64,000 nucleotides of DNA from positions 186,001 to 250,000 of the forward strand of contig CP137329.1 of the NCBI GenBank assembly GCA_033182465.1. Reading direction: 5' to 3'. Made by a program: the position numbers and the translations under genes. Origin of the DNA: Sanghuangporus weigelae (Eukaryota; Basidiomycota; Agaricomycetes; Hymenochaetales; Hymenochaetaceae). Below are positions 20,806 to 63,758 of this stretch, one piece after another (the stretch's first letter is position 1; each line of letters opens with the position of its first letter). The notes under the pieces are model-generated. The model was not told where the DNA came from, made no database searches, and was given only the letters and a program-made list of their open reading frames with translations.

Positions 20806-23935
<3,130 letters not shown>

Positions 23936-25786: not shown

Positions 25787-28700
25787 CTATATGTTCTGGC
25801 ATATAGTACAGTTCTCGCTGATAACATGGCTAAAGGCCACAGCTATAAGGAGAATGATTAAAATCGGTAGACATCGGTAGTGGAAATGGAGACCACGTAC
25901 GCAGAGCAATCAAGGCGGCAGAAATGCCGAAGATAAGCACGAAGATAAACCCATACTTGATGACAATTTGCCTTCGTTGCCGCTTTTGCTTTAGAGAATA
26001 CAACGGGGCGCGGATCTGACGCGAGGGGCGCAACCAGACTGTTCAGGAAACATAATTAGCCAAAGGCATTATGACGGATGAAGTGAATCAAACGTACATA
26101 GGAACGTCGCGTGCAGACGATCAAAGTAAGGAATGAACAATGGGATCGCGAGCATGAACAACAATAAATGGCAGATCAAGAAGTCCGAGCTCCACAACGA
26201 CAGTTCGATAATCTTGACGATAAACTCGCGAGCAGGTTGGCTCATCGCATGTGTACCGAGGCCGCGACCATACCACTTCCCTGTCCACCAGGCACGATTC
26301 GTCTCATCATGCTTGAACTCACGCGATAGGAAGACAGAGATAAGAATCTTGTGGATGGCGCGTTCGATGAAGATGATTGCTATGAGTCCCATTACTGCAT
26401 GTGATGTATTCCACAGCTCAAGGAACCACTGCACAAAGTCAGATACCTCATCACATAGAAACTGAAAGACTTTACTTACGAGGAACTCAAAGAAACCAAC
26501 CATCCCAACGAGAGCCGAAGTGTGAGCGATGAATGCCATGACTGATCCGAACTTCGGCGCGACGGTATCAAGCATAGGTCCTAAGAATATGGAAACCAGG
26601 AACAAAACGAGCAAAACGGCAGCGTTCCAAACGATGGGGCCCAGACTGACAATCGCAAGTCGAATGAGAGGGCTTGCGTTCTCCCTGCCGTCGGACTGCC
26701 GGAATGACTTGACAAACAGATACGCAATGATGAATAATATCGCCAGGCAGACCGGGAACACGATCTCCGAGAGCAACACTGTACGCCATCCGGCACGAGG
26801 CGAGTCACCACCAGATTGCTTGTCTGATGGCTGACCGAGCTTCTTTTTCTTGTATCCAGTGATCATTGTCCGTGACAATCTGCAATACCCGATCCACGCG
26901 TTCTTGTGAGCACGAGCATTGCCACGCGACATCCAGCGCAAGAACTCCCGATAGTCAATGATGAAATCTGCGACTGAGAATTGGTGCGGGTTGAAGATGA
27001 ACGGAGCTAAACACAACGCGAGTGTTGTAATCCAGAAGTAGATTATATGCGGAATAAACAGCGTCAAGGTCACGTAGAGCAACATTATCAGCGTACGCAT
27101 TCCCAGGTAAATACTGGGACCCGCGAATCGCGAGAATAGCGTGCTAAAATTAACCCTCGAGGTTGCGAAGCCTCGTCCTGTTGCGATGTATCGAGCACCA
27201 CCATAGTTAAGATTCGTCAAGATAGAATTGCACTGAATCTGAGTGGAGAAGATTTCAAAAACGGGCGACAGGGACGTGAACTGCTTCGTCAACCGGAGAA
27301 TAGCACGTCCAGCTCCGCGTTCGACAAGTTCTAGTGTACAATCATCAACACCGGTGAGCTACAAACCATGCTTATGGAGCGTACCTTGCAAGAACAGGGG
27401 CAAGAAAGCAATCATGAACACCAAGAAGATACTGTAGATACACCTCTTAATCCAATCGAAAACGGGAGACAAGTTGTAGCATCCAGATTGATTCGGAATA
27501 AGCTGGCCTTGGCTAGTGTATCTGCAGATCTGCACAGAGCTACCCAATGTACCAAGGAACACCACTACACGCACAGATCAATACCATAGCAGACGCGTGA
27601 TAGCATGAGAACTTACTGGTGACAATGAAGACCTGGACCGAAAGGATGACCATGATGTTGTTGATCTGGAAACCAGGATGGCCGTAGTAGAACGTCAGGA
27701 ACCGGTCGATAGGTAACTGCGTCCCAAGATAGTAGTACTCGCGACTCAGCATTTGCTCGCCCATTCCGTGGCCGAGTTTCGTCTGGAAGTTCAAGATAGT
27801 GCCAAAGCCAAGGTCACGTCCCTTTCCGCACTGGAAGTACTCTGTGTGCTTGATCTTGCCGCCTCTTCCAAATGCCGTTATACCCGCATAGATATCTTCG
27901 TTCAAGTGAAGACCCTTTTGAGCCTTGGAAACACCGCCACGAGTGTTCATGAAGATGCCGTTGAGGAAATCCGGATGTCCGTAATGAAGTTTTCCACCGA
28001 TCCATGACAGAGTGCGTGCCGAAAGAGTTCCGAACGTTTGCTCTTTACCAGCAGCGATATCACCAAGAACACCGATATTCTCTGAGAAAATGTATTCGCG
28101 AGCACCAACGATAGCCACGGGAGCCTTCTTGAAGTCCTGATGCCCCCACTGAGCGTAAGGACTCTGACTTGATACCGAAAACTCCTCGAACTCCCCGAGC
28201 ACGTTTCGGATCTTCAAGCACTCTTCAAGGTAGTTGTCTTGGTTCGCATCAATAAGCTGGAGGTATTCGCCACGGTAGAAGATAATCGCATGGTTCTGAT
28301 TGTCCGATTTGCCGTCACCAAGAATAGGATTGCCCGGAAGCTCAATTCGGAACTTCGGACGACGACGTCCTGTCTCGGGTATGAACTCGGAGTGACCATC
28401 AATAAGAGCACTAAATAGCCGCGGCTCTCCACCTTCACGCTTCGAGGGCTCCTCGTCAAGATATGCGATCTGCAAGTCAGGATATGCTCGCAACAAGAAC
28501 TCCGCGTTCTCTCGCTCCTGGGCATTGAACTTTGAATACCTTTGCATTGAAACCACGAATTTGAATTTGCGACGAGCCATACGCTCGAGCTCGCGTTCGA
28601 GCTTGTCCGTATTGCCACCGAACAGCTGGACGACCTCCGGGTTCTCAACACGGTAGAGGAGCTTTATCGCCTTCGCGTAGTTCATCATTCCGGATACCGT

Positions 28701-31700
28701 ACGGTACAAGGTCTGAGCGCGCAAACTGGCCCAGATACGCGTCCTCAATGTGAACTCCGGCGCCGAACTCTTGAAACCAATGCAGTAAAACGGTAAATCA
28801 TCCGCACTCTTTCCATTGCTACCCTTTTCGTCACTGCCTCCAAACGGATTCTGGCCATTGAACATATTCGACTCTTCCGCGAGAATCTTGGTGTCCTTCA
28901 CGAAGTTATCCCATTCAATCGGATGCAATTGCTTGAGGTACTCGAGTAGAGTGACGCGCGTGTGCTGGTCCTCTTCCTTAATAATCTCACGCAAAGAGAG
29001 CAATATTTTTTCCGAGTAATGCGGCGTCAGAACAGTGAACGTCGGCATTGCATCAACGGGTAGAGCTTCGGGAATGTTTGTCATAAGCGACTGTGAGAAG
29101 AACGAGATACGGCGTTCAGCCTCACTCCCCGAAGGGAAGAATTCACCCCTGAATCCACGGTCGCTCTGGCTCAGGAAGAACGCTGGTGCACGCAGAGCCC
29201 TTCTGTCGCCCTCCCCATCCGTTGCAACCTGGTGGTATAGCAGCTTCTGCACGTGATTGATTGACAACAGATGCTCCCGATACATGGAAATGATGATCGC
29301 GTTCCAGATCTGACTGACCAGCACCTTCGGCTTGTATTTGACCTCCATCTCCGAAGTAGCAAGTAGCTTGGAGTAGATACGCTTAGGGAGCCGCGTGAAG
29401 ATCTCGCGCCATGGAGTCCATATCGAAAGACCAAGCATGAAAGCACGCGCAATGCTGAAGACCGTACTCCAGATAATGTACCACAGGAACGTGTCGAGGA
29501 AGAAAAGAACGAGATCCATGATATACATTATCGTCAACGTGAAGGCCGCCTGATTCGAGCAAAGCGCATCCCCAAAGAACTTGTCATCGCAACCTTGGAT
29601 CTTCATGCCTACCATGACTGAGATTGGATCACGGAAGCTCGAGGTCAGGAAGAAGTAACTTTCCGTGAACTTGCATCCAAAGACCAATATCCAGAGCAAA
29701 AATGAGCCCAGTCGTGCATTGCGAGTAAGCGAGGGGTGGCTGGCTGTAAACGTCTGGCTCGCGAGATATTTGCGCGATTTACTAGCAACACGATCCCCGA
29801 ACATGCGACCGGATGGCATGATACTGAACAGCAATGTCGCGACAACCGAAATGAAGAACTGGACGATGCCAATGATAAGCGGAACGTTACTTGACGAGCC
29901 TGGGTCATCAGCGATGGCAACGTAAAAGGTTGGTCCGGCCGTAAGCGCAAGAGTGATGAACAAAAATAACAGGCGACGCGTAAGATGAGAGGTATTATTC
30001 CACGTCGTCGGTATATACGAGAATTCCGCAAGGGTAGCCAAGATCATAATGACAGTTGACACCGCGCCGCCAAGAGCCACGGCAGACCAGGTCATCGCTG
30101 CAGTCGGGCTCTGTTCGCCGCTGTGCGTGTACACCACTTTGGAGTTGTATGCCGTGTAGTACCAATACAAAGAAATATGGACTACCCATATCCGATTGAA
30201 GTTGACCAGGAGGTGGAAAAATGAGCGTTTTTCATAATACGTCTTGAAGAACACCCTATTCCAGTCTATCCTATCGAACTTCATGAAGCGATGCGCGGGT
30301 GCAACATCAACGAGACGCGTCTATTTTATGCATCGAGATCAGTGACCATTTAACAAAGAACGAGTGGATATACCTTATCGGTAAGAACAATCCGCGCAAT
30401 CCCCTCAGGATACCAAAATAACTGGTTTATGTCGTCATAACCAATGATCTGGTCGTGGTCCCTTTCACGCCTAATGTAGCGTCCATCTATGAGTTCGTAT
30501 CCTTGGTCCCTAATGAAACGGTACAATGGCTTGATCACGGCACGTAAATACAGACCCTCCGGTACTGGTTGATCACGATTTTGGCACTCAGGCGACCGAT
30601 AATAGTCATCTGCGCACTTGAAGATGAAGCACATTGCCTCCGGGCAGAAGCGTACTTGAGCGGCTTCTCCCCAAATAAGGAGGTATAGAGCAATCTGACG
30701 CAGACGGTCGTACTGGGACATGTTATGCATGGCCTGGCGCCACCGGTCAAGGGCAGCATTAAGCGACTTCTCTGATGACCCGCGACTATGTGGAGGCTTC
30801 TTTTTGATAGACTTAGACGCCAGTCGTTGTAGGCCAGGGTTCTGCGACTGCCCCACAGCGTCATCCAGGTCAAGCTGGGCGGCAAAGTACCACTTCCGGT
30901 AATTCGCGTGCCAACCCCCAATATAGTCCGCATGCAGGGTAAGGAGCGCTTGATCGGGAGGCATACGAGATGCCCGACTGTCGAGTTGCTGCATTAGGAA
31001 GTCGAACATATTCCGCATCGAGTCACGTTGGAAGCCGAATTTATTCGCAAGGTCAAGAAAAACGTCCTCAATCTCTTCCTTCGAGAGAGGAATACTTCGC
31101 TCTCGACTCCATGCTGGGTACTGTTCACGGATGGCACCGCCAGAGAGAGCACCAAAATCACCCGACAGAGTTGGGGTGTCCGATATACCCATACGCGACC
31201 CCGGCATGAGCGACTCCGCGGATGGTTCATAACGGTGCCCATACACATCGATTTCCGAGTCAGTGTCACCATCTTGACGTGGATGTGCTATGACGAAATT
31301 AAATAGTCAGTAGATTGCGTGAGAAATTTGATTAGTAGCATAGGCCGAGAAATCAACAATCCCGCTGAGCGAGACCAGCGCCAAACGGAGCACAATGAAT
31401 GTACGATATCACGCGCAGCAAACGGCCGCAACGTAAATCAAAAACCCACAAGCCATCGACCGATAACAGATTGAAAATTCCGTCCAACCTCCGACAGGTT
31501 ACGAAAGAAACTGAGTGTGGCAACTCACAATAGTCATGGTCATAGTATGGGTTTTGCGAGTCAATATCTGACATGTAGGTATTCCTTCTCGACGGATAAT
31601 CACCAACATCGCTTTCGGATTCGTAGTATCCCTGGCCATCGTGGTGAATGAAGGGATTTGGAGTTGGGATCTGGGGCGCGACGCGCGGATCGCCCGTGTA

Positions 31701-58111: not shown

Positions 58112-59045
58112 ACCAAGCAGGGGGGGGGGTGGAACAATCTATAGAGAGGGGGAGAGAATAGATATAAGCAGGATGGAATACTCAATGATCAACCTGGAAG
58201 ATGAATCCGGATGTGCTGCGGTGAGCCGAGTGAATACTTTGGCAACTTGATCACCTCGGAGATGAATTGATAGGACAGGGAAACAAGCAGAGAGTATATG
58301 GGGCCACACCTAGGACGTCCGGACCAGTCTAAACAAGGAAGGCGAGACACCCAGGGATGGGACTATGACCTTCTATGAGTGACAGAGTCAATCGGGACAG
58401 TCTGAGGGGCTTTGGAACAGAAGATGTGTGTGCTGAACAGATCTCTGCTATTCTCTATCGAAAAACTACGACATCTAGGCAGTTTTTATAGACTACCATA
58501 GTCCAAAACATGTACAAAATGAGTGATCTAAGACTGGGGGAGGATTGCGACAGGTTGTGAAGTGAAACACAATGAAACTACAACAAGGAGCGTGAAACCG
58601 ATGAGACAGAAGTCTAGTGGACTACAAGGAACTATGAAACAGAATGAAATCATAGCAAGGAGTGGGAAACTGACATGATAAGGGTCAGGTGGACTGCAAG
58701 GAACTGTGAAACAACATGAAAACTGTCCAGGAAGGGTCCTCCAAGAGGCAAATGCGCATCAGCAAACAAGGCAGATGGAGCACTCAAATGGAAGTACCAA
58801 TTGGGGAACTCTGATCAGGAGTCCGAGCTTTGGAGGCCACTTCGGCAAGGTCCAAACAATGGAGCGCACCTTGTGGAACGTCCAGGAAGAAGGTATGTGA
58901 CTGCTTGGTATCTCAAAACGAATCAGAGTGATCCCTGGCAGTGTGAAACATTGATGAGAGGATCTAGGGGCCTATCAGATGGTCTGGGTCCAGGCTTCAG
59001 AGTGCCGATATCCGCTCGGATGACTGACATGGTGGTCGGCAAGTT
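58112..59045 (-). repeat. Repeat E, outer copy, proximal part
   Basis: Reverse-complement match of the inner copy at about 50595-51520, including the TATAAAA box and the text CAGAGATCTGTTCAGCACAC. Continued by 45270-45585 on the other side of the chromovirus. A run of about ten G near 58122-58132 borders it. Confidence 0.7.
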
Positions 59046-59578
59046 GTAATGGTCAATGAAAGTTATTTCTTCCTTGACAAGATCATAAAAGAAACTTCAA
59101 ATTTCTTCCTTGGGATAATTTAAAATATCGCACGTGGAAAAATGCAAGCATCTTTTCTTTTATGAGGTTTCAAATTTCATTGGTAATCTAATTATGAATT
59201 TATTCTGGGTCTAAAAAATAACAGTTTGCCCGCTGTGCAGTAATACTCACTGTGTTACGGAAGAAATAATACATGTGTGTGTAGATGTGTGCTAGATCAC
59301 AAATCGCGTGACTACACTCAGAATGTAGATCATCTAACACACAGTTTATGTAGCAAACAGGAGTCTGACTACGGGGCGCTAGCACACTTGGTGTAGATGA
59401 GCTAGACAGTGCCAAAATGTATATTAGTGTAGACGCTATACAAACAAGTTTGTATATTTGTGTTGGATGGACTACAATGTCGGTATATATGCACCTAAGA
59501 ACTAAGTTTGAAATTCTCTGATCCACCCAAATAATTCGATATTGCTATATCAAGAATATAAATTGCTTAATATAGAAA
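59046..59578. other. AT-rich interval with repeat traces
   Basis: About 530 bp. Positions 59190-59250 match the reverse complement of 2052-2110 over about 60 bp. Recurrent GTGTAGA text at 59270-59480. No gene seen. Confidence 0.45.
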
Positions 59579-59599
59579 TTATATTGAATTTCGAATACG

Positions 59600-61030
59600 A
59601 CAACTATCTTGGCTAGCCCAGTACCTATCTGCCAATGCACTGATCCGTTCATGGTCTGATACAGAAGGTTGAGTCGAGGTGATATGCGCTGTTTGATCCA
59701 TCTCGTCGAGAAAACAACATCCATCCAAATCCCTGGCTACATCGCATACACTTACGGAGCGATCAACCTTGGTTCGCAGTTCCTGAACTTCAATATCTTT
59801 TGGCAATGAAACTTGTCGGACTGTGTCGCGCTCGCGGGATAGCTGAGTTCAAAGATCCTGACTAAAGCATCAAAAATTGGATGTTACTGCGCTAAAGCAA
59901 ACGTGATATAGAGGAACACTTACGCTTGGCCCTCCAGATTATGGATTCGGGACTCAAATCTTCGCCCATCGCTGCCGTTCGCCCTGTCAATGTCATTGTG
60001 CATTTTCTGCACGTTGGAAATCAAGTCCGCCATACGAGACCGCTCCAGAGACAGACTTTTGTTTTCATTAATTAATTGAGTCTGCACACTCTACATCTCG
60101 AGTTAATATGAATCACAAGACGAGTAATTAACGGCGACGCACCTCCCAGGTCTTCACGAAGATTGGAGCATTCGTTCCGCAATCGTTCGGATTGGATATT
60201 AGCGGAGGCCAATTCCTCGGCAGCATGGTTGATTGATCGTGCAATCGTTGATTCCGTTTCTGCAGATTTTGAGCTTCTCGCTTGTGCATGATGTGCTGTT
60301 TCTGAACCATGCGGTGCCGCTCTGACCCAGATGGTGAGCTTGACCCGTTGAGCAAAGAGAATAAACTCACCATTGAGGAATTCAAACCTCGCATTGGCCT
60401 TTGCGAGTGCCGCTCTCAATTGGCTGGATTCACGCTGGTATTGGAGAACTTCTTCGCGAAGCTTGATAGTATCAACGCCCATTTCTTTTCGGTATGCCTC
60501 GAAGTTAGTTCGGACTTCCTCAAGCTCATTCTCTAATTCAGTTGGCTCGCGAACAGATCCATTCACCTGTGGAGACGATGGTCACGCTTGTTGAGTAGAA
60601 GTAGCAGCTGGAAGTGCCCCGCCCCGTTCATAACGAGAAATCATAGTCTTCAGCGTGTCCCTCTCTTTGATGTAAGCCTGAATCGTCGCCTGGTGGCTGG
60701 CTTGGGTACTCTCAAGTTGAGCGTGCAGTGTCATGATTGCCTCGTGCGCCTCACGAATAGCCTCGTTCTGCTCGTTCTCCATTCGCGCCTTGTACTCCTC
60801 AGCAAGAACTCTACCAAGCGTACGATCAAGATTTTCCATGTCGCGCTGTTTCTTAGCCAGTTCACCTTGCATCCTGACATATTCAGCGTTAACCTCGGTG
60901 AACGTCTTGCTGCTTTTCTGCATGCGGTTGATCATTGAAATATTTGGGCTAAAGTTGAACAAGTTATCCGCAAATACGTTCGGTGAAATTTGCGCTGCCG
61001 AGGGAACCGGAAACTCACCCAAATTGATGC
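59600..61030 (-). pseudogene. Internal fragment of nucleoporin TPR/MLP1
   Basis: Minus-strand text coding for long coiled coil typical of the nuclear-basket protein TPR/Mlp1. Order: F-T-E-V-N-A-E-Y-V-R-M-Q-G-E-L (about 60890), A-Y-I-K-E-R-D-T-L-K (about 60650), L-R-A-A-L-A-K-A-N-A-R-F-E (about 60390), then E-N-K-S-L-S-L-E-R-S-R-M (about 60040) and L-R-T-K-V-D-R (about 59760). Both ends of the roughly 1800-residue protein are missing, and frame changes and stops interrupt it, so it is a gene fragment. It abuts the RPN9 fragment in the same orientation. Confidence 0.72.
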
Positions 61031-61345
61031 GGCCATTAAGCCGCATTTACTGCCGGGTCAACACCATCGAGATCGTCCAAAATCTTCCATGCTGTATCCA
61101 TATCCGTGCGCATTCAATCCAAATCACCGTAGAGGAATTTTGCATGTGCCAAGGATGAGAGGAGGACTACATGAGCTTTGGGTGATTCTTCGGTGCTGAT
61201 TCGAGAAAGGAGGGCAGTGAGGTAGCTGAGGATGGTGACAGGGTCTGAGTACGTTGACATTCTAGATAAAACCGTAAGAATCATCCAGTCTGGACATGAT
61301 TGCTTACCAGAGACGAGTGGTGGGCGCGATGTCGGATGCATGACG
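61030..61345 (-). pseudogene. Fragment of 26S proteasome subunit RPN9
   Basis: Minus-strand text reading S-Y-L-T-A-L-L-S-R-I-S, then S-L-A-H-A-K-F-L-Y-G-D-L and, after a break, T-D-M-D-T-A-W-K-I-L-D-D-L-D-G-V-D-P-A-V-N-A-A. These are neighbouring parts of the PSMD13/RPN9 family lid subunit. A stop lies between the two pieces and the protein ends after A-A where the real gene continues with Y-Y, so this is a truncated copy. Confidence 0.7.
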
Positions 61346-61756
61346 ACCGTGCAGCAGAAGAGAAGAGAGGTGATGATGGTGGCAGGCAGGAAGAGAGAAG
61401 TGACGCGTCGAGTTTTCGGTAAAGTCCCTCAGACTCGCGTAGATCTGTGTAGAGTTGTCTATATGAGCTAGCAATATTTCGTCATTTCCGTTGGTCATCT
61501 AGGCATATCTACAACTTGATGTGCACTAAGTCACCAATACGTAAATTTCTAGGTCATAAACAGACAACTACAAATGAAACTTTCATAGACTAAAACAACA
61601 TTTTTTGTAGATTTGTATTAGCTCATATATGATAGACTACACGGATGTGTGTTAGGAACCTCTGTAACGCGGTGACTGATACTGATAGTCTAGGTGACAG
61701 TTACATCGTCACGTCACCAGCTGGTTTGTCGTGCCACCAACTCTGTGCGAACCATC
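61346..61756. other. Promoter side of the Crinkler-type gene, repeat-rich
   Basis: About 400 bp AT-rich. No gene. Text such as GTAGATTTGTATTAGCTCATATA resembles stretches near 59270-59480 and the window end. Confidence 0.4.
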
Positions 61757-63758
61757 ATGTCGAAAAGTGTACTATACTTCGTTTTGTGTCCTGGAGACGC
61801 AAGTATCGGACCGGAGGAAATAACTCTGGGACAAGAGGTGCTTGTTTCTCATCTCCGTGATACGATCTACGACAAGCACAAGAAAATATTTGAACGTGTC
61901 GGTTGTGACCGCAGCGAACTTGTCGTGTACACGGTGGGTGGATAGGTTCCTCTTTCTCATGTCGTGTTGTACTTATCCAAAGAAGCCGTCCGACTTGAAA
62001 GAAGAAGGAGACGAGGATCTGCTTCAGCGAGTGACGGATAGCATCTCTAAGAGCAATCGTGTTCGTCATCGTGATCCACTAGACACGGTTTTTAGCCACG
62101 GTTTCGGCAAGGGCCTAATTCATTTGGTGCTCAAAGTGCAACTGATCCAGATTCGTGAGTCGTTGGCTCTATTGGTCCAGCTCATCCTCTGTGATACAAA
62201 ATTATATATCCATTTTTGATCTGCTGTAGCTACGTCTTTCAAACGACCGAGGTCTCCCTCCCAGGATGACGATGTGGAGCAACGTGAGTGTTTCGAAAAA
62301 AAGACTGGTTATTGTTGAAATTCAAAGTATGTTCAGGACATAATAAGCAAATCAGCCTTGGATTGAAGGTGCTTGCTCCCTCAACTGCTGCGAAAACTAG
62401 CGAGATGCGTTCCCAGCAGTCGAAGTTCCCGATATATAACGGGCGCCCCGACGATCTCCGTGGCCCGCCTATTGCAAGTTATCATGAAGCATTCGCAAGG
62501 ATGAAGGATGACCTTGACCATCCTGAAGGAATAGAAGTGACAGCCGAAGAATTAAGGTGGACGCATGAACTTTTCGAGGAGTCCACGAAATTCTACAGAT
62601 CTGAAGGTGCACTAGTCGATGGAACAAGGGGTCTGTGGGAAAAGCTTCTTGGTGTGGTGATAAGAAAGCTCGCGTCCGAGGGTGGTGAAACGATCGCAGA
62701 TGGTGGCGCGACTGTCGACTGTTTTGCAAGCGGAGGCAGCTGTGAACGTGCCCTCATTTGCGACTTCGAGTGGAAGCAAGATCTCGGAAGTTCGGGTGAT
62801 GCGGGCTTTCAGGGAGGTTGTTCATACCGGAAGATCGTTGTGCAATCGGTGGTATGATTTTACCATTTCCCATTAAATTTATTTTAACTGACAACTGTTT
62901 CAGAGCAAAAGAATCCATAACAGTACCTGTTGCCCTTGTCTGATTATCGGCATAATGGGTCCATATTTCTGCATCATGGGCGCCGTTTTCGTTGACATTC
63001 CAATTATGGAATTACTCACGGGTTGGATTCATCTCAGTGGCAACCCGCAAGGACGCGTCCTCGGCGTCGCACGTATTTTGAAAGCCGCAAAGAACACACT
63101 GTGCCGCTTGAGAAATTACTACTCGAATGTCCCACTCAGCGACGAACCTGACCGCAATGCTTACCTGCCTATGCCAGCTGTAAAAGACGAGTCGCAGCAG
63201 CCCCCTGCCCTGCGTTACATCGACAGACTGATAAAGGAAGACAAGGCACGACCTTTGTTCCGCGCGCGAATGGGCGACCGTGATGTGGTTGTAAAGTTCC
63301 CAAATCGATATTGCAGGGATGCTCACGAGCGTCTGGCTTCGGAGAAGCTTGCGCCCGCATTACACTTTTGTGAGCCTATTCGGGGAGGTCTTTACATGGT
63401 TGTAATGGATTATGTCAAAGAGGTAACTGCGCACGATCCAGCTGGGAAGATCCCAGGCGATGCTTACAAAGATGTCGTAAAAGCTATCGAGCTGTTGCAT
63501 GAAGAGGACTTCGTCTTTGGAGACCTGCGTCGGCCTAACCTCCTTCTTATGGATAGAACCGATGAGGGGCGCAAGGGAGCACTCCTGGTCGACTTCGATT
63601 GGTGTGGCAAGGACGGAGACGCAAGATACCCTGATACTTTGAATGATACCGGAGTTATCGAGTGGGCGGTAGGCGTTGAGCGGAATGGTCCGTTGAAGAA
63701 AGAACACGATTTGTACCGGTTGACAAGGCTTCAAGAGCTCGTTCCTTACGAAGATTGA
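61757..63758 (+). CDS. Crinkler-header protein with PD-(D/E)XK-like and kinase-like domains
   Basis: Five exons: 61757-61933, 61983-62154, 62230-62283, 62337-62851, 62904-63758; 1773 nt, 590 residues, frame closed. Residues 1-115 resemble the ubiquitin-like Crinkler header: V-L-Y-F-V-L-C-P-G-D, then K-P-S-D-L, then D-P-L-D-T-V-F-S and L-I-H-L-V-L-K-V. About 150-306 hold I-Y-N-G-R-P-D-D and a late E279-W-K281 followed by G-D-A-G-F-Q-G-G-C-S-Y-R-K, a pattern like PD-(D/E)XK nuclease folds. The C-terminus (about 400-590) is kinase-like: K437 in V-V-V-K-F, D513 in F-G-D-L-R-R-P-N, D536 in L-V-D-F-D-W. No secretion signal. Exon 4 could start 9 nt earlier. Header, nuclease-like and kinase modules are known together in Crinkler-type systems; function is inferred. 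Confidence 0.72.

Follow-up and report, generated by a model that had tools for sequence, protein, structure and literature searches.

The gene analysed here comes from the wood-decay fungus Sanghuangporus weigelae and bears on the question why free-living fungi keep Crinkler-type proteins. The gene resides at positions 61757-63758 of a 64,000-nucleotide stretch of DNA (GenBank assembly GCA_033182465.1, contig CP137329.1; C12:186001-250000), which is called the window here and belongs to a source genome of 33.87 Mb on 13 contigs. A preliminary description had reported a Crinkler header joined to a nuclease-like and a kinase-like domain in one intact gene. According to our analysis, the window gene is an intact, selected Crinkler-type (Crinkler-RHS-type, CR) gene of the restriction endonuclease (REase)-kinase kind. 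The combination of Crinkler header, REase and kinase has already been published, and the window gene adds one more member. What the present analysis adds is the repeated loss of nuclease residues beside a retained kinase.

Splicing of four GT-AG introns yielded one frame of 590 amino acids (aa) on five exons (Table 1). The coordinates and residues named in the preliminary description exactly matched the spliced product, in which DPLDTVFS begins at position 90, followed by E279-W-K281, K437, D513 and D536. The frame had been called a clean one of 590 residues; it has this length after splicing but is not a single open reading frame, the longest one listed comprising 267 aa in the last exon. Header, nuclease-like block and kinase were all supported in the order given, and the intactness of the gene was borne out by purifying selection in each part tested, as determined by the ratio of nonsynonymous to synonymous substitution rates (dN/dS).

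Table 1. Parts of the window gene, nuclease (D/E/K) and kinase states of the copies in the genome, and the neighbouring repeat element. Positions without contig refer to the window.
Feature	Position	Strand	Remarks
Exon 1	61757..61933	+	aa 1-59; first half of Crinkler-type header; dN/dS 0.215 against C11 paralog
Intron 1	61934..61982	+	GT-AG, 49 nt, in-frame stop inside; splice dinucleotides same in paralog
Exon 2	61983..62154	+	second half of header, to about aa 113; PF20147 match over aa 21-108
Intron 2	62155..62229	+	75 nt
Exon 3	62230..62283	+	linker carrying basic stretch KRPRSPSQDD (aa 121-130)
Intron 3	62284..62336	+	53 nt
Exon 4	62337..62851	+	aa 135-306; helical middle part and most of PD-(D/E)XK-like core (D256, E279-W-K281, G288-D289, Q293, Y298)
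Intron 4	62852..62903	+	52 nt
Exon 5	62904..63758	+	aa 307-590 and stop; last nuclease-core strands, connecting helix, kinase domain (about aa 396-590; K437, D513-LRRP-N518, D536-FDW)
Window gene	61757..63758	+	D/E/K complete; kinase intact
Copy	C11:1782k		D to N; kinase intact
Copy	C11:1028k		E to G, K to R; kinase intact
Copy	C11:1022k		D/E/K complete; kinase intact
Copy	C11:1020k		E to R, K to R; kinase intact
Copy	C11:16k		D/E/K complete; kinase interrupted (TAG ahead of catalytic loop)
Copy	C7:2188k		D/E/K complete; kinase intact
Copy	C7:1469k		D/E/K complete; kinase interrupted (frame change ahead of kinase)
Copies	C2:302k, C2:1k		D/E/K complete; kinase intact
Copy	C1:4338k		E to G; kinase intact
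Copy	C7:2178k		D/E/K complete; kinase intact
Copies	C12:516k, 631k, 664k, 707k, 723k		D to N; kinase intact
Copy	C12:717k		E to A; kinase intact
Copy	C8:2243k		decayed
Multi-copy DNA element	59248..61674	.	CACTG-type ends; neighbour, not part of gene

Crinkler-type header

The window header alone matched the Crinkler profile PF20147 with an E value of 0.021 and 16.0 bits, which is below the cut-off of 24.6; aa 21-108 were aligned to positions 16-104 of the 106 profile positions. In a scan of the whole protein, PF20147 was not reported at E ≤ 1. By contrast, full-length relatives exceeded the cut-off, P0005 (39% identity over 96%) with 34.4 and P0010 (38% over 69%) with 36.5 bits over nearly the whole profile. 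Judged by these alignments, the header is homologous to Crinkler headers, the assignment resting on the full-length relatives. The structure model of P0004 (mean predicted local distance difference test score, pLDDT, 78.9; header blocks 69-82) displays within residues 2-106 two strands, helices, a short strand, two helices and a strand. This predicted order is in keeping with the description of a ubiquitin-like header in PMC5289972 (papers given by PMC number are cited here for excerpts of their texts). The sequence DPLDTVFS, previously taken as a mark of the header, corresponds to a short low-confidence helix in the model of an S. baumii protein and does not define the header.

Altogether, the genome contains 17 PF20147 matches, nine of them on C11, which makes up 5.3% of the genome. 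Five of the 17 are found no more than 25 kb away from a contig end (such ends amount to 1.9% of the genome), but owing to tandem copies these counts are not independent of each other. The linker behind the header carries a basic stretch (Table 1), which we take to be of the nuclear-signal type. A K[KR]x[KR] motif directly behind the header was also detected in P0001, P0002, P0005, P0006 and P0008. As it was absent from that place in the other 23 relatives, the basic stretch was not upheld as a feature of the family. The pattern L-x-L-F-x-[AV]-K (LxLFLAK-type motif) was not found in the window protein, no signal peptide was obvious on inspection by eye without a predictor, and no sensor domain was recognised in the profile scan.

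Nuclease-like block and kinase domain

In the model for P0001 of S. baumii (mean pLDDT 81.0, predicted template modelling score 0.79), the region of interest is composed of a helix (173-188), three strands (193-196, 202-213, 219-230), two helices (239-251, 254-262) and two further strands (267-273, 276-284). Projected onto this model, D256 of the window protein is located at the start of strand 2, E279 and K281 at the end of strand 3, and Q293 and Y298 in the helix after strand 3. The predicted fold thus places the pattern D...(E/D)-x-K on those strands of an alpha-beta3-alpha-beta core where it is expected. Out of 11 proteins of the P0012 group, seven carry PD-x(n)-(E/D)-x-K; the exceptions are P0012 with PN, P0020 without the aspartate, P0023 with E-x-Q and P0028 with E-x-R. 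The assignment as a nuclease is supported by this motif, which has the textbook PD-(D/E)XK form in relatives, and by the predicted topology. To this extent the nuclease-like block of the preliminary description was retained, but searches of Pfam and of PDB sequences gave no nuclease match. A profile of the block built from ten segments had one match among PDB sequences, with an E value of 1.2 and not to a nuclease, and no nuclease family was matched in Pfam. In the fold search kinase matches filled the list, so that the nuclease block was barely probed; no solved nuclease was matched.

The kinase-like domain was corroborated by a profile match, the predicted fold and the catalytic residues K437, D513 and D536. 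Both profile and fold thus identify the C-terminal domain as protein kinase-like, with a putative phosphorylation activity.

Closest relatives and selection

Three overlapping homolog searches, each scoring about 8000 best-sharing candidates, gave 13, 17 and 11 rows. That the gene is far from a chance frame is indicated by 13 proteins at E ≤ 1e-3 in one of them, headed by S. baumii ACEPAG_1900 (P0001) with 97% identity over 90%; ACEPAG_2605 (P0002) of the same species showed 83% over 90%. Where an organism was given, the relatives came from Sanghuangporus, Lactifluus, Auriscalpium, Fomitopsis, Antrodiella, Ganoderma, Daedalea, Dichomitus, Lentinus, Trametes and Earliella, all of which we take to be mushroom-forming fungi. 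The annotated models of both S. baumii proteins begin at the place of window intron 1 and therefore lack the first half of the header. As exon 1 is conserved and completes the header, the NCBI start inside intron 1 of the window gene was not accepted as genuine. The kinase-less S. weigelae models P0008 and P0010 were not accepted as real either; an annotation fault is likelier, since the corresponding loci of this genome contain the kinase part.

A full-length paralog with 88% identity and the same exon-intron layout is located at C11:1781250-1783273. Homology between both copies extends from 13 bp upstream of the ATG to 19 bp downstream of the stop codon and fails beyond. Because it ends just outside the gene although the introns differ at just 31 of 223 sites, the alignment suggests a gene-sized DNA duplication, or a duplication whose flanks were replaced. 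Over the whole gene, dN/dS was 0.27 (101.5 nonsynonymous and 103.5 synonymous changes), with 0.305 for the header, 0.302 for the middle part and 0.29 for the kinase. The lowest value of all parts tested, 0.156, was determined for the nuclease block (aa 241-345; 13 nonsynonymous and 21 synonymous changes). The paralog has lost the stop codon at the position used by the window gene, and its frame extends slightly further.

Loss of nuclease residues and retention of the kinase

With the kinase domain as query, 21 matches at 19 loci were obtained in the genome. Nuclease and kinase states were read by eye from the translated frames of 18 loci, C8:2243k being too decayed and excluded. The residues D, E and K were all kept in eight of the 18 loci, E and K alone in 14. 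The kinase residues were present in all 18 and uninterrupted in 16. Searches with the nuclease block and P0012 disclosed no nuclease-only gene among the matches listed, which represent a lower bound, and added at least one fragment (C11:1031974-1032201).

The same asymmetry was seen in 19 aligned proteins. On the nuclease side, E is present in 16 (D in one more) and K in 15, while G-D, P and G occur in all; on the kinase side, K is present in all and each D in 18. The sole protein with a substituted kinase site, P0028, has also lost the nuclease K. A kinase tree of 35 rows was calculated, in which some long branches meet and the joins at these places are unsure; it excludes C11:16k (stop in frame), C8:2243k, P0007, P0008, P0010, P0027 and the partial P0013-P0018. 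On this tree the loss of D, E or K took nine changes, seven of them forced by starred branches, compared to a mean of 11.8 in shuffles (31 of 500 as low as nine). Loss of E or K alone took five changes, four of them forced, against a mean of 8.1 (seven of 500 as low as five). Since several changes are forced, yet few shuffles are as low, the losses of nuclease residues are repeated but clustered.

Six related nuclease-kinase genes lie as dispersed duplicates between 516k and 724k of C12. Five of them were compared and share segments of about 1.6-4.3 kb with 84.6-97.5% identity. Over L040 3088-4088, the 631k copy matches the 664k locus with 96-100% identity, which drops to 88-89% for the final 600 bp. 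Compared to the 717k locus, identity is 66-94% before this point and 100% throughout these 600 bp, which represent the kinase part. The 631k copy thus looks chimeric, with a 664k-like front and a kinase end identical to 717k, and these alignments suggest that the kinase part rather than the nuclease part was exchanged or converted between C12 copies of differing nuclease state.

A tandem array was observed at C11 1018k-1032k. In this array the nuclease-complete 1022k copy lies between the nuclease-impaired, kinase-intact copies 1020k and 1028k, and a further fragment is located at 1032k. Relatives with consecutive locus numbers on a single contig were also noticed in S. baumii and S. sanghuang.

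Comparison with known systems

A fusion of nuclease and kinase is not unusual; about one-sixth of the C-termini of Crinkler-type proteins are reported to be REase-kinases (Zhang et al. 2016, as quoted in PMC5289972). CR proteins of this kind share a ubiquitin-like header, an REase-superfamily domain and a kinase, and are described for free-living organisms too (PMC5289972, PMC12693581). By its REase-kinase C-terminus, the REase part of which is predicted from motif and model, the window protein belongs with them; no difference in architecture was found, except that here a mushroom family with repeated loss of nuclease residues is concerned. The oomycete protein CRN8 likewise has, by its description, an REase-like part and a kinase behind a Crinkler header (PMC5289972). 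The window protein differs from it in being fungal, in lacking the LxLFLAK-type motif and in showing no evidence of secretion; on account of the missing motif, it was rejected as an oomycete-type CRN.

The SPOK proteins of Podospora resemble the window protein in the order of nuclease and kinase within one protein, in the PD-(D/E)XK motif and in the occurrence of nuclease-dead, kinase-live forms (PMC6660238, PMC9972908). The nuclease of SPOK kills and its kinase confers resistance; nuclease-dead forms remain resistant, while kinase-dead forms are toxic (PMC6660238). Killing proceeds via DNA damage (PMC9972908). However, SPOK proteins have a coiled coil at the N-terminus as well as a Cys/His cluster (C-x3-C-x13-C-x5-H-x7-H), whereas the window protein starts with a Crinkler-type header. 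The cluster was absent from the window protein and from all 28 relatives, some of which are partial, and the window gene was consequently rejected as a SPOK gene; no membership is claimed. Its Q-x4-Y is one residue off the QxxxY of SPOK3 (PMC6660238). No Podospora protein occurred among the 41 rows of the three homolog searches, five of them without organism, and no direct comparison with SPOK sequences was made. Moreover, SPOK drive has been demonstrated genetically, while the window gene is known here from its sequence.

For Crinkler proteins, PMC5289972 relates as a proposal a division of labour between nuclease and kinase like that of SPOK, with the REase as the toxic part. PMC12693581 links the nuclease-kinase architecture of SPOK to Zhang et al. 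2016 and CRN8, and the general idea has therefore been published. In the literature searched, no paper contained "Spok" together with "Crinkler" as whole words, and the pair "meiotic drive" and "Crinkler" did not occur in any one paper either.

Possible function of the window gene

We give about an even chance to the assumption that the PD-(D/E)XK domain cuts DNA and is restrained by the kinase of the same gene. The window protein would act inside the fungus and reach the nucleus, its PD-(D/E)XK domain would cut DNA, and the kinase would restrain this activity either within the same protein or in trans. The window gene would represent a complete copy with nuclease and restraint, and paralogs retaining the kinase after a loss of nuclease residues would supply restraint only, similar to the resistance-only alleles of SPOK. 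Loss of the nuclease together with retention of the kinase is, in outline, what a division into killer and restraint would predict. The preliminary description had suggested a role in inter-fungal conflict, selfish-element control or incompatibility; a selfish or conflict role agrees with the pattern among the paralogs but is not demonstrated by it.

Several points weigh against a restrained nuclease. The copies C11:16k and C7:1469k combine complete nuclease residues with an interrupted kinase; they speak against a strict rule and, if expressed, would be harmful under this model. The D to N call of the C12 copies is unsure, as another aspartate (LQD) lies six residues earlier, and D256 was assigned as the catalytic aspartate from alignment and topology only. 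Nuclease state and kinase state were not significantly associated in a two-by-two test (p 0.59), the table of which was filled in by hand from the 35 tree rows plus C11:16k (15 intact and 2 interrupted versus 18 and 1). Furthermore, kinase conservation beside nuclease decay would also suit a plain signalling kinase. The nuclease-like scaffold would then be vestigial and its PD-(D/E)XK residues dispensable remnants, in line with near-invariant kinase and variable nuclease residues. We regard such an ordinary kinase as distinctly improbable, since dN/dS between the window gene and its paralog is lowest in the nuclease block among the parts tested, and complete D/E/K sets persist in Polyporales and Russulales.

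If the nuclease is restrained, the window gene might even be a single-gene killer-and-antidote element, a Crinkler-headed counterpart of SPOK. Its nuclease would harm nuclei or spores without the gene and its kinase would protect carriers, while nuclease-impaired, kinase-intact paralogs such as C11:1028k, C11:1020k, C11:1782k and C12:717k would be suppressors spreading in response, with kinase parts swapped among the copies. This extension is tentative, and we consider it possible but doubtful. Alternatively, the protein may serve in internal defence or allorecognition, as a kinase-silenced nuclease that is freed on sensing a transposon, a virus or a foreign nucleus and leads to incompatibility or cell death. 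The occurrence of Crinkler domains as N-terminal parts of fungal NLR receptors (PMC9815663) speaks for this, as do the position of the genes among transposons and that of the header matches near contig ends and on one contig. We nevertheless deem it unlikely, because the protein has no recognised sensor domain and a location beside repeats does not separate the classes. Still less probable, in our opinion, is a conflict effector directed against other fungi, wood-inhabiting bacteria or the host tree, the nuclease of which damages the target DNA and is tuned by the kinase. Such a role would agree with the Crinkler-type header and with reports that oomycete CRNs are delivered into plant cells and their nuclei (PMC5289972), but neither a signal peptide nor an LxLFLAK-type motif was seen, and near-identical gene-sized duplications with repeated nuclease loss look more like a selfish or internal conflict gene.

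If nuclease-kinase Crinklers share the poison-antidote logic of SPOK, one principle would apply to effectors of plant pathogens, spore killers and genes of harmless mushrooms. Complete and nuclease-impaired copies within one genome offer a ready natural comparison, and several Sanghuangporus genomes are available (PMC10803629).

Genomic setting

The repeat-rich neighbourhood mentioned in the preliminary description was confirmed by a multi-copy DNA element (Table 1) that ends 82 bp upstream of the start codon. At least 12 copies or pieces of it exist, several of them 97-100% identical. It is accompanied by ACT, a candidate 3-bp target duplication; since ACT also follows its copy at C12:636.8k, these letters may instead be part of the element itself. 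Another Crinkler gene, at C2:301397, starts 73 bp behind the end of a diverged copy (86%). By their look, two insertions at nearly equal distance from Crinkler starts are non-random, two copies having been compared.

Pieces of Ty3-type retrotransposons are located upstream of the window gene, and a repeat piece at 58148-59052 is about 80% identical to at least 30 places of about 900 bp each. Loci with such genes also contained a near-perfect palindromic repeat of 1.1 kb (L043 5908-6997; L049 294-1375 and 2252-3341), with half-units at L031 7997-8553 and 9296-9758, L045 2267-2823 and L040 617-1152; these loci had been picked for such genes, and no enrichment is claimed. Beyond the end of the window, L030 5483-6361 (64483-65361 in window numbering) is about 70% identical to repeats beside other Crinkler and nuclease-kinase loci (L041, L042, L044 and L049). 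Elsewhere in the window, Pfam searches revealed coding pieces of ordinary genes, namely a 1,3-beta-glucan synthase (FKS-type) at 26069-30284 and an MCM helicase at 21656-22411.
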